A stretch of 62,978 bases of DNA from Pirellulales bacterium. GTDB taxonomy: Bacteria > Planctomycetota > Planctomycetia > Pirellulales > JAICIG01. The notes under the pieces were generated by a model. That model made no database searches. It was not told the origin of the DNA and saw only the letters and a list, made by a program, of their open reading frames with translations. Positions 50,684-57,744 of this stretch are shown piece after piece. Positions within the stretch are counted from its first letter, which is position 1. Each line of letters opens with the position of its first letter. The stretch is taken from the NCBI GenBank assembly GCA_035533075.1, contig DATLUO010000021.1, forward strand, positions 1 through 62,978, read 5' to 3'. The position numbers were made by a program, and so were the translations under genes.

Positions 50684-50688
50684 GCCCC

Positions 50689-50723
50689 CCTGAACCCTGA
50701 ACCCTGAACCCTGAACCCTGAAC
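50689..50723. repeat. CCCTGAA heptamer array in the DUF1552 leader
   Basis: Five tandem CCCTGAA units, the last changed to CTGAACT, ending 6 bases before the ATG. They take the place where a Shine-Dalgarno would be. Confidence 0.9.
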
Positions 50724-50729
50724 TCTCTC

Positions 50730-52040
50730 ATGACCCATCACTTTTCGCGTCGTATCTTCCTGCGAGGCGTCGGCGTCTCGATGGCCCTGCCCTGGATGGA
50801 ATCGCTTTCGGTATGGGGCGACGAGCCGGCCGCGCCGGTCGCCAACAGCGGCGGCAGCGATGCGCCCGTGCGGTTGGCGGTGCTGTTCTCCGGCAACGGT
50901 TTTCACAGCCGTGAGTGGTGGGCCAAAGGCGCGGGCCGCGACATGGAGTTGGGCCAGGTGCTGGCGCCGCTGGCTGACTTCCGCGAGAAGATGCTCTTTA
51001 TCCGCGGCCTTTACAACGCGGAGGCCCTCAAGGGAAATATCCACAGTTCGCAGACCGGCAATCTGCTGTCGGGCGCGCCGCTGGCCTCCGGCGGCGAGAT
51101 CCGGTCGGGCACCAGCCTCGACCAGGTGATCGCCCAGCGCGCCGGGCACTCGACCAAAGTACCCAGCCTCGTGCTCGGCTGCGAGAAGTCGAACCCCTCG
51201 GTCCACAAGAACTACTCGATGCTCTACAGCTCGCACATTTCGTGGAGCTCTCCCACCACGCCCACGCCGCTGGAGCTTTATCCGGCGCTGGCCTTCGACC
51301 GGCTGTTCAAAGACGAAGTGCAAAAAGGCGACGAGAGCGTGCTCGACGCGGTGCTGGCCGACGCCCGTGACTTCCGCCGCCGCGTGAGCGCGGCCGACCA
51401 GCGGAAGCTGGACGAATATCTCGATTCGGTGCGGGAGGTGGAGCAGCGCATCGAGCAGGCCGGAAAGCAGGGCGAATTGCAAGGCTGGCGGCCGACGTTG
51501 GCCGGGCCGAACATGCCGCGGCCCGCCGACGGCATTCCGCAGAACATCGCCGACCACATGCGGTTGATGTGCGACATTCTGGTGCTCGGATTCCAGACCG
51601 ACACCACTCGCGTGACGACGCTCAAGCTGAACAACGACCACAGCTCGCTGCGTTTTCCGCACCTGGGCGTCGACTACATGATCCACCACTTGCTCTCGCA
51701 TTCCGACACGGCCGACTGGCTGAAGGTGAACCAGTTCTTCCTGGAACAGGTCGCCTACATCGCCCGCAAGCTGGACGGCATCCAGGAGGGCGAGCGGACC
51801 GCGCTCGACAACTCGATGATTCTCTACTGCTCCAGCATGCTGACGGGCAACCACGAGGCGAACCAGTTGCCCGTGGTGCTGCTGGGCCGCGGCGGCGGCA
51901 AGATCGATGCTGGCCGAGTGCTCGACTATCTTGGCAAGCCGAACCGCAAGATGTGCAGCCTGTTCCTCTCGCTGCTCGACAAGGCGAGCGTGCATCTTGA
52001 CCAGTTCGGCGACTCGAACGAGCGGCTGGCGGAGGTGTAA
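50730..52040 (+). CDS. DUF1552 family protein, Tat-like signal
   Basis: A 436-residue protein of the DUF1552 family, which accompanies DUF1592-type cytochrome proteins throughout planctomycetes. The N-terminal HHFSRRIFLRGVGVSMALPW carries a twin-arginine export signal. The body has FSGNGFHSREWWAKGAGRDM, IRGLYNAEALKGNIHSSQTG, SMLYSSHISWSSPTTPTPLE, LKLNNDHSSLRFPHLGVDYM and NHEANQLPVVLLGRGGGKID. Family members resemble sulfatase/alkaline-phosphatase-fold proteins; activity is unknown. No Shine-Dalgarno is present because a heptamer array abuts the ATG. Its last 13 codons recur in near-identical form at 52955, after the toxin-antitoxin module. Confidence 0.9.
   Translation: MTHHFSRRIFLRGVGVSMALPWMESLSVWGDEPAAPVANSGGSDAPVRLAVLFSGNGFHSREWWAKGAGRDMELGQVLAPLADFREKMLFIRGLYNAEALKGNIHSSQTGNLLSGAPLASGGEIRSGTSLDQVIAQRAGHSTKVPSLVLGCEKSNPSVHKNYSMLYSSHISWSSPTTPTPLELYPALAFDRLFKDEVQKGDESVLDAVLADARDFRRRVSAADQRKLDEYLDSVREVEQRIEQAGKQGELQGWRPTLAGPNMPRPADGIPQNIADHMRLMCDILVLGFQTDTTRVTTLKLNNDHSSLRFPHLGVDYMIHHLLSHSDTADWLKVNQFFLEQVAYIARKLDGIQEGERTALDNSMILYCSSMLTGNHEANQLPVVLLGRGGGKIDAGRVLDYLGKPNRKMCSLFLSLLDKASVHLDQFGDSNERLAEV
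51996..52034 (+). repeat. direct repeat, copy A (3' end of DUF1552 gene)
   Basis: 39 bases beginning CTTGACCAGTTCGGCGACTC, encoding LDQFGDSNERLAE. Copy B at 52955-52993 matches 36 of 39 bases. Confidence 0.9.
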
Positions 52041-52073: not shown

Positions 52074-52391
52074 AAACTTTGCGATATACATCCGGATCCG
52101 TTTCACATTCCAGACCAAGGGGTTGCGTCAGCGTTCCAGATTTCCAGGCTCATCCGAAACGCATTCGCGCACAATCCCTTCGATCCGAAATGGGAGATTC
52201 GCGAAGCCTGGAGGGATCGCTGTTTCACAGTACGAGATGTGATTTCGCTCGACACTACCGGTCTGGATGGGCGGCGCGTCCGGCGTGAGGACTACGGCGG
52301 TCCGCTGGCCCTTTTTAAGTTGATCGAATACGCGGAGACCATTCTCGAACAGAAAGCGACCAAACACGATGGACTGGCAAGATCGAATTAG
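52074..52391 (+). pseudogene. 5'-truncated gene, HEPN-like C-terminal fragment
   Basis: A frame open from the stop at 52071 to a TAG at 52389, without any start codon. It reads PDQGVASAFQISRLIRNAFA, then HNPFDPKWEIREAWRDRCFT, VRDVISLDTTGLDGRRVRRE and YGGPLALFKLIEYAETILEQ. It is clearly protein; the R-N-A-F-A-H motif is that of HEPN (R-x4-6-H) nucleases, but this is a short match. The N-terminal part has been lost at the junction with the DUF1552 gene. The end overlaps the antitoxin start by 23 bases, suggesting the three belonged together. Confidence 0.6.
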
Positions 52392-52599
52392 CGTTGACCC
52401 GAAAGTGCTGGTGGGCAAGCCCGTAATCAAGGGCACCAGGATCGCCGTCGAGTTCCTGATGGAGTTGCTGGCCGAAGGGTGGTCACATGAGCAAATCCTC
52501 AAGAGCTATCCGCACCTGACAGAAGAAGACATTCAGGCGGCGCTGCGCTACGCCACGGAGGCCGTGAAACTGGAACGAGTCTACCCTTTGCCTGTGTGA
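52369..52599 (+). CDS. DUF433 antitoxin
   Basis: A 76-residue protein with the full DUF433 signature: DWQDRISVDPKVLVGKPVIK, GTRIAVEFLMELLAEGWSHE, QILKSYPHLTEEDIQAALRY. The family has a winged helix-turn-helix and acts as antitoxin to the PIN-like DUF5615 protein encoded 3 bases downstream. It should bind and neutralise the toxin and repress the operon. Confidence 0.92.
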   Translation: MDWQDRISVDPKVLVGKPVIKGTRIAVEFLMELLAEGWSHEQILKSYPHLTEEDIQAALRYATEAVKLERVYPLPV

Positions 52600-52602
52600 C
52601 TC

Positions 52603-52959
52603 ATGGCGGCGTTTCTGGCGGATGAAAACGTGCCACAGGAAGTGGTCGATGCAGCGCGACAAGCGGGCCACGATTTGAAGTGGATCAAGGAGCTGCAGCC
52701 CGGTGTTGACGACGATACGGTGCTGCGAACCTCGATGGCGGAAAACCGCGTGTTGTTGACGTTCGATAAGGACTTTGGGGAGATGGCATTTCGCCAGGGA
52801 AAGTCAGCAACGTGCGGCGTGATCCTTTTTCGTCCGCGGGTCCATTTTCCCGACTATGTTGCGCGGTTCGTGATCGCGGTGTTAGGGCAGTCCGTGAACT
52901 GGGAAGGCCACTTCGCCGTCGCCCAGGAAGGTCGGTTGCGCGTTGTTCCGCTACCTTGA
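52603..52959 (+). CDS. DUF5615 PIN-like toxin
   Basis: A 118-residue PIN-like protein. Acidic residues typical of the nuclease centre are in AAFLADENVPQEVVDAARQA (D, E), VDDDTVLRTSMAENRVLLTF and TFDKDFGEMAF (D-x-D-F). The family are probable RNases paired with DUF433 antitoxins. It starts 3 bases after the antitoxin. Its stop codon (CCTTGA) is the first part of the direct repeat copied from a DUF1552 gene end. Confidence 0.9.
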   Translation: MAAFLADENVPQEVVDAARQAGHDLKWIKELQPGVDDDTVLRTSMAENRVLLTFDKDFGEMAFRQGKSATCGVILFRPRVHFPDYVARFVIAVLGQSVNWEGHFAVAQEGRLRVVPLP

Positions 52960-52993: not shown

Positions 52994-53138
52994 GCATGAG
53001 CATCGGGTCGCGCAGCCTGCTTGCCGGCGATCAACCCTGCACGACCGGAAGAGTGCGCATAGCCGGCAATCGCTGTGGTAGACTAGATTCAGTATTTCGC
53101 TCGCAACCGTTGTTTCTGCCGCGTTACTTGTGCCACTT

Positions 53139-54389
53139 ATGCTTCTTTGCACTCACTTGCGTCGACTCAGGCGGTTCTTGGTGACGGCGATCTGCGTGCT
53201 GGCGTCGGCAGGTATCGCCCTCGGCCAACCGGCCACGCGGCCGGGCAACAAGCGACCGCGCTGGTACGACCCACGGCGCTACCTTGATCGCGGCCTCGAA
53301 GCGGCCGACGACGTGCGGCGAATCGAGATCGTCGAGATGCTCGTTGCGCTGGCGCACGGTCAGCCGCCCGACGCCGGCCAGGGGTGGTTCCACGACGGGC
53401 AAAGCCGCTTCGGCTGGCAATGGCTCGCCGACCGCTACGACGAGGATCATGACGGCCAGATCGCGCCCGAAGGGTTTCCGCCGGATGCCGCAGACTTGCT
53501 GGCGAGGCTCGATCGCGATCAAAACGGCACAATCGAAGAAGACGATTTCGATTGGTCGAGTGAATCGCCCTACGTGCAGCAGATGTCGCAGACGAGGCGG
53601 TTGTTCGGGCCAATCGACCGCGACCGCAACGGTCAAATCACCAAGGACGAGTGGCGAGAGTTCTTCGAACGCGCGGCTCTCGACGGCGCTTCGATCACGC
53701 CGGCCGAGCTTCAGGCGGCGCTGTTTCCGCCCCAGCCGGCAAACTCAGACGACGGTCCGTCGCCATTCGACTTTCTGCGAGGTTTCGTGACGGGCGAATT
53801 AGGCTCCGTCTCGCAAGGGCCGGCCATCGGCGGTCGCGCCCCCGATTTCGAGTTGGCCGACCACAGGCATCAGCGGCGGGTGCGGCTGTCGGACCTTTAT
53901 GAGAAGAAGCCGGTGGTGTTGATCTTCGGCAGCTTCACGTGAGGCCCCTTCCGGTCCCAGTTTGGGATCCTCGAAGACCTGCACGGCCGCTATGGCGACC
54001 AGGCCGAGTTTGTGGCCGTTTACGTTCGCGAGGCCCATCCGGTGGGCGGGGCCTGGCCCGGCAAGTTCAAAAACGAAGCGGGGGCTGCCATCCATCAACC
54101 GACGCAGCTTGCCGAGCGTGTCGACGTGGCCGCCGAGTGCTGCAAGGTGTTGGAAATCTCCATGCCGCTGTTGGTCGACGACGTCGACGACCGCGTGGGC
54201 CGGGCCTACAGCGGCATGCCCGACCGGCTCTATGTGATCGCTCGCGGCGGCCGCATCGCTTACAAGAGCGGCCGGGGGCCGTTCGGCTTCAAGCCGGGCG
54301 AGATGGAGCAGTCGCTGGTGATATTGTTGCTCGACGAAACAAGCGGCCGCGCGGAGGCCGACGTTCCGCCGGAGGCCGGAGGCAGGTAG
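53139..54389 (+). CDS. probable selenoprotein: EF-hand plus iodothyronine-deiodinase-like domain
   Basis: A 416-residue protein if UGA at 53940-53942 is read as selenocysteine (residue 268). A signal peptide (RRFLVTAICVLASAGIALGQ) is followed by three EF-hand loops (about 101-112 DEDHDGQIAPEG, 125-136 DRDQNGTIEEDD, 160-171 DRDRNGQITKDE). The thioredoxin-fold domain then has VVLIFGSFT-U-GPFRSQF, where deiodinases have GSxTU-P-x-F, and the frame continues unbroken with EFVAVYVREAHPVGG (deiodinase: YIEEAHxSDGW), MPDRLYVIARGGRIAYKSGR and GPFGFKPGEMEQSL, all matching the family in order. A bacterial SECIS-like hairpin follows the UGA. It should be exported and act as a calcium-dependent thiol/selenol redox or dehalogenating enzyme (inference). 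GTG at 53130 is an alternative start. Confidence 0.82.
53940..53969 (+). promoter_or_regulatory. UGA selenocysteine codon and SECIS-like hairpin
   Basis: The in-frame TGA is at 53940-53942. A stem GGTCCCA (53953-53959) / TGGGATC (53963-53969) of 7 bp with one G-U closes a loop GTT whose first base is G, 17 bases after the UGA. Bacterial SECIS elements have a short stem, a G among the first loop bases and a loop 16-37 bases from the UGA, so this fits. Confidence 0.65.
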
Positions 54390-55671: not shown

Positions 55672-57744
55672 ATGGCTCAGAGCTTAGAAAACCTGCGAAA
55701 CATCGGCATTGTCGCCCACATCGACGCCGGCAAGACCACGGTCACCGAGCGGATGCTCTACTACGCCGGCGCCACGCACCGCATGGGCGAGGTCGATAAG
55801 GGGACGACCGAGACCGACTTCGATCCCGAAGAGCAGCAGCGCGGCATCACCATCTATTCGGCCAGCGTCAGCTTTTCGTGGAAGCAGTTCGCCGTTAATT
55901 TGATCGACACGCCGGGCCACGTCGATTTTACGGCCGAGGTGGAGCGCAGCCTGCGCGTGCTCGACGGCGGAGTGGTGGTGTTCAGTGCCCGCGAAGGCGT
56001 CGAGGCCCAGAGCGAAACCGTCTGGCGGCAGGCCGACCGCTACCACGTGCCTCGCATCGCCTTCATCAACAAAATGGACCGCGAGGGGGCCGATTTCCAC
56101 AGCACGCTCGATGAAATCCGCGACCGGCTGGAAGCGAACCCCGTGGCCATCCAGATTCCCGTCGGCGTCGGGCCGCCGCATATTGCGGGCGCGTTTCGCG
56201 GCATCATCGACCTGGTGACGATGAAGTTCCTCACCTTTACGCCGGAGAGCATGGGCAAAGAAGTCGTCGAGTCGGAAATCCCGGACGACCTGCTCGACGA
56301 GACAAGATTGTGGCGCGACCAGATGCTGGAGAAGCTCTATGATTACAGCAATGAGTTGATGGAGCTGGCCTTGGCCGAATCGCCCGTGCCCGACGAATTG
56401 GTGCGGCGGGTGCTGCGCGATGCGACCACGCACCGGTTGATCGTTCCGGTGCTGTGCGGCTCGGCGCTCGATCATATCGGCATTCAGCCGCTGCTCGACG
56501 CGGTCGGCCATTACCTGCCCAGCCCGCTCGACCGCCCGCCGGTGAAAGGCACCGATCCGCAAAAGCCCGGCAAAGAACTGCAGCGCAAGCCCTCCAACGA
56601 CGAACCCTTCTGCGGTCTGGTGTTCAAGGTCGTGGCCGACAAACATGGCGACCTGAACTTTGTGCGAATCTATTCCGGCGTGCTGAAGGCCAACACGCGG
56701 GCCTACAATCCCGGCCAAGACAAGAAAGAAAACGTGGCCCAGCTCTGGCACGTGCAGGCCAGCCGGAAAGAACAAGTCCCGCAGGTCGAAACCGGCGACA
56801 TCGTGGGGATCATCGGCCTGCGAAATTCCGTCACCGGCGACACGCTCTGCGACGCCAAGCAGCCGATTCTGTTGGAATCGATCCAGTTCCCTGAAACCGT
56901 CATGGCGATGGCCATCGAGCCGGAGACCTCCGCCGAAAGAAAAAAGCTGGCCGACACCTTGGAAATGCTCAAGCGACAGGATCCGACGTTCCGGGCCGCC
57001 ACCAGCGAAGAGACCGGGCAAACCATCATCAGCGGCATGGGCGAATTGCACTTGGAGGTCATCAAGCACCGCCTGCTGCGAGACTTCAACCTGAACGTCA
57101 AAGTCAAAAAACCGCAGGTCAGCTATCGCGAGACGATCAAGCAGGCGGTCGAAGTGACCGGAGAGTGCAACCAGCATGTCGCCGGCCAACTGCTGTTTGC
57201 CCGCGTGACCATCCGCATGGAGCCGCAGCTCACGGGCGAGCGGGCGGTGAGCGTGCTGCCGGGCAAATCAGAAGGCATTCCGCCGGAGTTGTTGTCCGCC
57301 GTGCTCGACGCCTTGAATCAAGAAGCCGAAGGCGGCGGTTCGCTGGGCTATCCGCTGATGAAGGTGAGAATCACGGTGCTGGGCGGCGAGACGAGCGAGG
57401 TGGGTTCCAACGAGATCGCCTTTCGCCGGGCGGCGGCCGACGCTTTCCGCACCGGGCTGCGAGAGGCCGGCATCGTGCTCTTGGAGCCGATCATGAAGCT
57501 CGAAATCTTGACGCCCGAAGAACACTTGGGCGACATCGTGAGCGACTTGCAGCAGCGTCGGGCGGTGATTACCGAGACGTTGGTCCGCGGGCGAAACACG
57601 GTGATCGAGGCCGAGGCGCCGCTGGCCAATTTGTTTGGCTATTCCAGCGCCATCCGCAGCTTGAGCCAGGGCCGGGCGTCGTGTTCGATGGAGCCGACCG
57701 CCTACGGGCCTGCACCTGAGGACGTGCTCAAGGCGTTCACGTAG
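55672..57744 (+). CDS. fusA: translation elongation factor G (fusA paralogue)
   Basis: A 690-residue GTPase that moves tRNAs and mRNA on the ribosome. G1 GIVAHIDAGKTTVTERML, G2/switch region TETDFDPEEQQRGITIYSAS, G3 VNLIDTPGHVDFTAEVERSL, G4 RIAFINKMDREGADFHST, G5 VLCGSALDH, then domains II-V (IISGMGELHLEVIKHRLLRD in III; AVEVTGECNQHVAGQLLFAR in IV; MKLEILTPEEHLGDIVSDLQ in V). The length is right for EF-G. It stands alone rather than in the str operon with rpsL/rpsG/tuf, and planctomycetes carry several EF-G genes, so this may be a secondary copy (EF-G2 type). Confidence 0.9.
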   Translation: MAQSLENLRNIGIVAHIDAGKTTVTERMLYYAGATHRMGEVDKGTTETDFDPEEQQRGITIYSASVSFSWKQFAVNLIDTPGHVDFTAEVERSLRVLDGGVVVFSAREGVEAQSETVWRQADRYHVPRIAFINKMDREGADFHSTLDEIRDRLEANPVAIQIPVGVGPPHIAGAFRGIIDLVTMKFLTFTPESMGKEVVESEIPDDLLDETRLWRDQMLEKLYDYSNELMELALAESPVPDELVRRVLRDATTHRLIVPVLCGSALDHIGIQPLLDAVGHYLPSPLDRPPVKGTDPQKPGKELQRKPSNDEPFCGLVFKVVADKHGDLNFVRIYSGVLKANTRAYNPGQDKKENVAQLWHVQASRKEQVPQVETGDIVGIIGLRNSVTGDTLCDAKQPILLESIQFPETVMAMAIEPETSAERKKLADTLEMLKRQDPTFRAATSEETGQTIISGMGELHLEVIKHRLLRDFNLNVKVKKPQVSYRETIKQAVEVTGECNQHVAGQLLFARVTIRMEPQLTGERAVSVLPGKSEGIPPELLSAVLDALNQEAEGGGSLGYPLMKVRITVLGGETSEVGSNEIAFRRAAADAFRTGLREAGIVLLEPIMKLEILTPEEHLGDIVSDLQQRRAVITETLVRGRNTVIEAEAPLANLFGYSSAIRSLSQGRASCSMEPTAYGPAPEDVLKAFT

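Follow-up and report, generated by a model that had tools for sequence, protein, structure and literature searches.

Deiodinase-like bacterial selenoproteins with a bacterial SECIS (bSECIS) element were described in 2005 by Zhang, Fomenko and Gladyshev (PMC1088965), who argued that thyroid hormone is not expected to be their substrate, and such proteins also appear in later listings, including the 2008 GOS survey (PMC2398784). The canonical bSECIS model is best characterized in the formate dehydrogenases of E. coli, and its consensus has an upper stem of 4 to 16 bp, a distance of 16 to 37 nt from the UGA to the apical loop, and an energy of ≤ −7.5 kcal/mol (PMC13188914). The gene that we describe here lies in a 62,978-nucleotide stretch of Pirellulales bacterium contig DATLUO010000021.1, referred to as the window. 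It resembles the previously reported bacterial proteins in its Pfam00837 domain, in the occurrence of both Sec and Cys forms, and in having a SECIS directly after the UGA; however, the earlier examples (PMC1088965, PMC2398784) are marine metagenomic sequences, whereas the window contains a full planctomycete gene with an EF-hand region in front. Its product matches the NCBIfam family NF038285 (deiodinase_rel) over the whole protein and above the curated cutoff, and nothing sets it apart from that family. With the animal iodothyronine deiodinases (Dio3, 4tr3; Dio2, 9h48), it shares a thioredoxin-like domain family, as judged by sequence profile, and an active-site Sec, but the window's gene differs from them in carrying a bacterial SECIS within the coding region and in its EF-hand front part. 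Compared with the canonical bSECIS, the window's hairpin has the same loop length of 3 with G first, a stem of 7 bp, a spacing of 17 nt, and an energy of −8.1 kcal/mol, but its sequence is family specific and its register shifts between subfamilies. Neither the protein family nor the signal is of a new kind, and the case in the window is a new and unusually well-supported member.

The reading frame at 53130 to 54389 on the forward strand comprises 419 codons and is a single frame when its UGA is read as Sec, with either GTG at 53130 or ATG at 53139 as the candidate start codon. The whole-protein match to NF038285 (deiodinase family protein) scored 415.8 bits (E value, 1.7e-124; cutoff, 250), and that to Pfam PF00837 (T4_deiodinase) scored 81.9 bits (cutoff, 27); both matches span the UGA. 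The EF-hand region (amino acids 122 to 180, positions 53493 to 53669, forward strand; PF00036, PF13499, and PF13202) is located upstream of the redox domain, a thioredoxin-fold deiodinase-like domain containing the Sec (amino acids 232 to 395, positions 53823 to 54314, forward strand; PF00837), for which the nearest solved structures by sequence profile are the iodothyronine deiodinases 4tr3 (Dio3) and 9h48 (Dio2). The encoded protein, which combines EF-hands with a thioredoxin-like domain, is probably exported and a redox enzyme; an N-terminal signal-like stretch, judged by eye, suggests export, and the redox function is a predicted one. The relationship to iodothyronine deiodinases is one of domain homology alone, and any deiodination activity is only putative. 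Just upstream (52369 to 52959, forward strand) are adjoining DUF433 and DUF5615 genes in a toxin-antitoxin-like arrangement. Elsewhere in the neighborhood, a short tandem repeat of CCCTGAA (50688 to 50719) directly precedes a DUF1552 gene at 50730, and a gene for an EF-G-like translation factor (55672 to 57744, forward strand) is located about 1.3 kb downstream of the deiodinase-like gene.

The in-frame UGA is at 53940 to 53942 on the forward strand, within the motif FGSFT-U-GPFR. Homologues were collected from 392 genomes of the phylum and 196 of the order and by a scan of genome contigs, and the contig records were, by their titles, overwhelmingly Planctomycetota; no relatives were found among viral contigs. 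In 157 distinct homologous stretches, the column of the UGA is occupied by TGA in 97 and by a Cys codon in 60 (TGC in 48 and TGT in 12), so that the residue is Cys in every case in which the codon is not TGA. Translation with the standard code ends the frame at 53942, as would be expected if the UGA were a true stop, a sequencing error, or the mark of a pseudogene, with the downstream frame left untranslated or translated separately. However, dozens of unrelated assemblies have a UGA at this column, and both homology and selection extend beyond it: over the 130 codons 3′ of the UGA, the window's gene differs from its nearest homologue by 24, 12, and 59 bases at codon positions 1, 2, and 3, respectively, indicating that selection persists downstream. 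Given these observations and the full Sec machinery of the genome, we consider a stop or a pseudogene extremely improbable. This establishes the UGA as a sense codon within one continuous selenoprotein gene, which standard ORF calling cuts into two. A further deiodinase-related planctomycete group, with FGCLT-U-PPFL and IYKALAHP-like motifs and an in-frame UGA, was also observed (L035 to L039, L042, and L043).

The genome from which the window derives encodes a tRNA-Sec with the anticodon UCA as well as SelA (557.8 bits), SelB (371 bits), and SelD (284 bits), all above their cutoffs, and the host combines these components with a UGA that aligns with the Cys of its homologues. Among 32 genomes in all, SelA was above the cutoff in 19 of the 20 with Sec copies, with the SelA gene of the 20th divided between two contigs; of the 12 in which only Cys copies were seen, 3 had SelA above the cutoff. 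Reassignment of the UGA to another residue (e.g., Trp), or low-level readthrough without Sec, has no specific support, and it is opposed by a column that is otherwise entirely Cys, by the presence of tRNA-Sec (UCA), and by the association of SelA with Sec copies; we regard its probability as negligible.

A hairpin follows the UGA on the forward strand, with a 7-bp stem formed by 53953 to 53959 (5′ arm, GGUCCCA) and 53963 to 53969 (3′ arm, UGGGAUC), including one G-U pair, and an apical loop GUU at 53960 to 53962 with G first. The original prediction had described a 7-bp stem with this loop, which direct reading of the sequence bears out, and had placed the hairpin 17 bases after the UGA; this distance holds for the loop, which thus falls within the 16- to 37-base range as predicted, but not for the stem, which starts 10 nt after the UGA. 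The RNAfold structure of 53940 to 54002 (63 nt), the check that had been proposed for a stable hairpin, contains exactly this stem. A lower stem (approximately columns 9 to 12 with 34 to 37) is present in some folds, in a register that varies among copies, and we do not count it as part of the element. We coded the published bSECIS constraints (PMC13188914) by hand, and the hairpin agrees with all of them in its loop (GUU), stem (7 bp), and spacing (17 nt), as well as in an energy of −8.1 kcal/mol, which refers to the contiguous stem alone and was computed by our own rule rather than by bSECISearch. An Rfam scan of the window returned no SECIS family at threshold, a tRNA being the only match.

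Taken by itself, the hairpin is weak evidence, within what is expected by chance. When both strands of the window are considered, 162 of 1,450 UGA triplets (11%) are followed by a model-fitting hairpin at ≤ −7.5 kcal/mol, and 8.8% by one that reaches −8.1 kcal/mol, the value of the hairpin described here; in addition, the 63-nt fold is not unusually stable (z score, −0.57). We dropped folding stability as a line of evidence for this 63-nt segment, as 52 of 200 shuffles folded equally well. With single hairpins being this common by chance, the call of the original prediction for a comparison across homologues was justified. Bacterial SECIS elements are usually argued from one fold; the window's hairpin provides a covariation-based case, in which the comparison across homologues is the deciding evidence and lies far beyond chance.

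Within the U/C-GPFR subfamily, which includes the window's gene, the complete set of seven pairs at the window's register occurs in 22 of the 33 Sec copies but not in a single one of the 56 Cys copies; the hairpin is hence not equally conserved in Cys-encoding homologues, which was the outcome named in advance as speaking against a SECIS. Of these 33 Sec copies, 21 have the loop GTT and 9 have GGC or GGT. Among 32 distinct Sec sequences, four of the seven pairs show changes on both sides, and 96.0% of cells are paired, a figure that is partly built in because these sequences were chosen for their common register, although the types of compensatory change are not. The covariation score was 0.403; shuffles averaged 0.140, with 0 of 500 reaching the observed score, and sliding the stem gave at most 0.135. 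The pair formed by the Arg wobble base and its partner shows compensatory change, being GC in 19, AU in 9, UA in 2, and CG in 1 of the Sec copies. A model-fitting hairpin at ≤ −7.5 kcal/mol was found in 81% of Sec_GP, 70% of Sec_PP, and 6% of Cys_GP copies, with two Sec_GP and six Sec_PP copies having no contiguous stem under our own rule. Subfamilies in another register have hairpins of their own (e.g., loop GGUC at 21 nt), and across subfamilies the distance from the UGA to the loop is 17, 20, or 21 nt. The expected restriction of covariation to Sec-encoding copies is therefore what we observed, namely, compensatory change in Sec copies and a structure that is not kept in Cys copies, albeit over few independent switches. 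Two contigs carry more than one copy: the planctomycete contig JACQFH010000661.1 has one Sec-encoding and one Cys-encoding member of the family about 3 kb apart (L086 and L101), a natural Sec/Cys pair in one genome, and VGYC01000031.1 (L080) has two adjacent Sec copies, UGPFR and UPPYR, which share the hairpin GATCCCA-GTT-TGGGGTC.

Part of the Sec-Cys contrast arises from amino acid changes at the same sites, and the hairpin could in principle be a functionless by-product of coding R-S-Q-F/A-G, with the UGA being read as Sec through a different signal. Conserved residues do write much of the stem (CAG and GGN hardly vary among Sec copies), and model-fitting hairpins are, as noted, frequent by chance. 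The synonymous codon choices nevertheless track the stem. Ser+5 is TCC or TCT in 22 of 22 Sec copies versus 3 of 31 Cys copies (Fisher P = 5e-12, ignoring kinship), Arg is mostly CGG or CGA in Sec copies, and GCT for Ala occurs in Sec copies only. The same peptide, RSQAG, is encoded as CGA-TCC-CAG-GCT-GGG in three Sec_GP copies and as CGC-AGC-CAG-GC(C/G)-GG(C/T/G) in four Cys copies. By contrast, the preference for GGG at Gly+8 was not significant by itself (P = 0.08), and one UPPFR-type Sec copy (L059) uses AGC for Ser and has, by sequence, its hairpin in a different register. Synonymous-codon shuffles within the gene seldom match the observed energy (P of about 0.015 for the window's own hairpin; median P of 0.010 for Sec_GP and 0.050 for Sec_PP versus 0.751 for Cys_GP), and the changes at the Arg wobble base and its partner are compensatory, both of which argue against a by-product of coding, an explanation that we consider very unlikely.

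At the sequence level, the comparison establishes that the hairpin exists and covaries, that it is confined to Sec copies, that the UGA is conserved, and that the Sec machinery is present. The SECIS interpretation of the original prediction is thereby supported in the fold, the Sec-only stem, the compensatory changes, and the machinery, and we conclude that the hairpin is almost certainly a bacterial SECIS element, predicted to direct Sec insertion at the UGA of the deiodinase-like gene. During translation, SelB with Sec-tRNA(UCA) would bind the apical loop, which contains a G and lies 17 nt downstream of the UGA, and the presence of SelB at the hairpin would lead to the UGA being decoded as selenocysteine rather than as a stop; SelB binding and the efficiency of Sec insertion at this hairpin are what we infer from such a model.

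In a tree of 150 domains, Cys rows are nested inside Sec rows, and about four Sec/Cys changes are needed, two of which are forced by well-supported branches. As some four switches suffice, the Sec-Cys contrast represents few independent events, and only 2 to 4 independent pairs were available for a paired phylogenetic test of Sec versus hairpin, too few for significance. Sec looks to be the older state in the family, with Cys having apparently taken its place on a few occasions, accompanied by loss of the hairpin; because the tree has only a midpoint root, we infer this direction rather than observe it. A scenario to which we give slightly less than an even chance is that the hairpin of the family shifted register (loop at approximately 17, 20, or 21 nt), with stems rebuilt while Sec was kept and decay in Cys lineages, and that the product is perhaps a calcium-responsive exported selenoenzyme, calcium responsiveness being suggested by the EF-hands in front of the Sec domain. 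With 97 Sec and 60 Cys stretches, all distinct, the present collection could yield a sharper planctomycete-specific SECIS model. If the register shifts and rebuilt stems are real, the family would constitute a natural experiment on the requirements of SelB.
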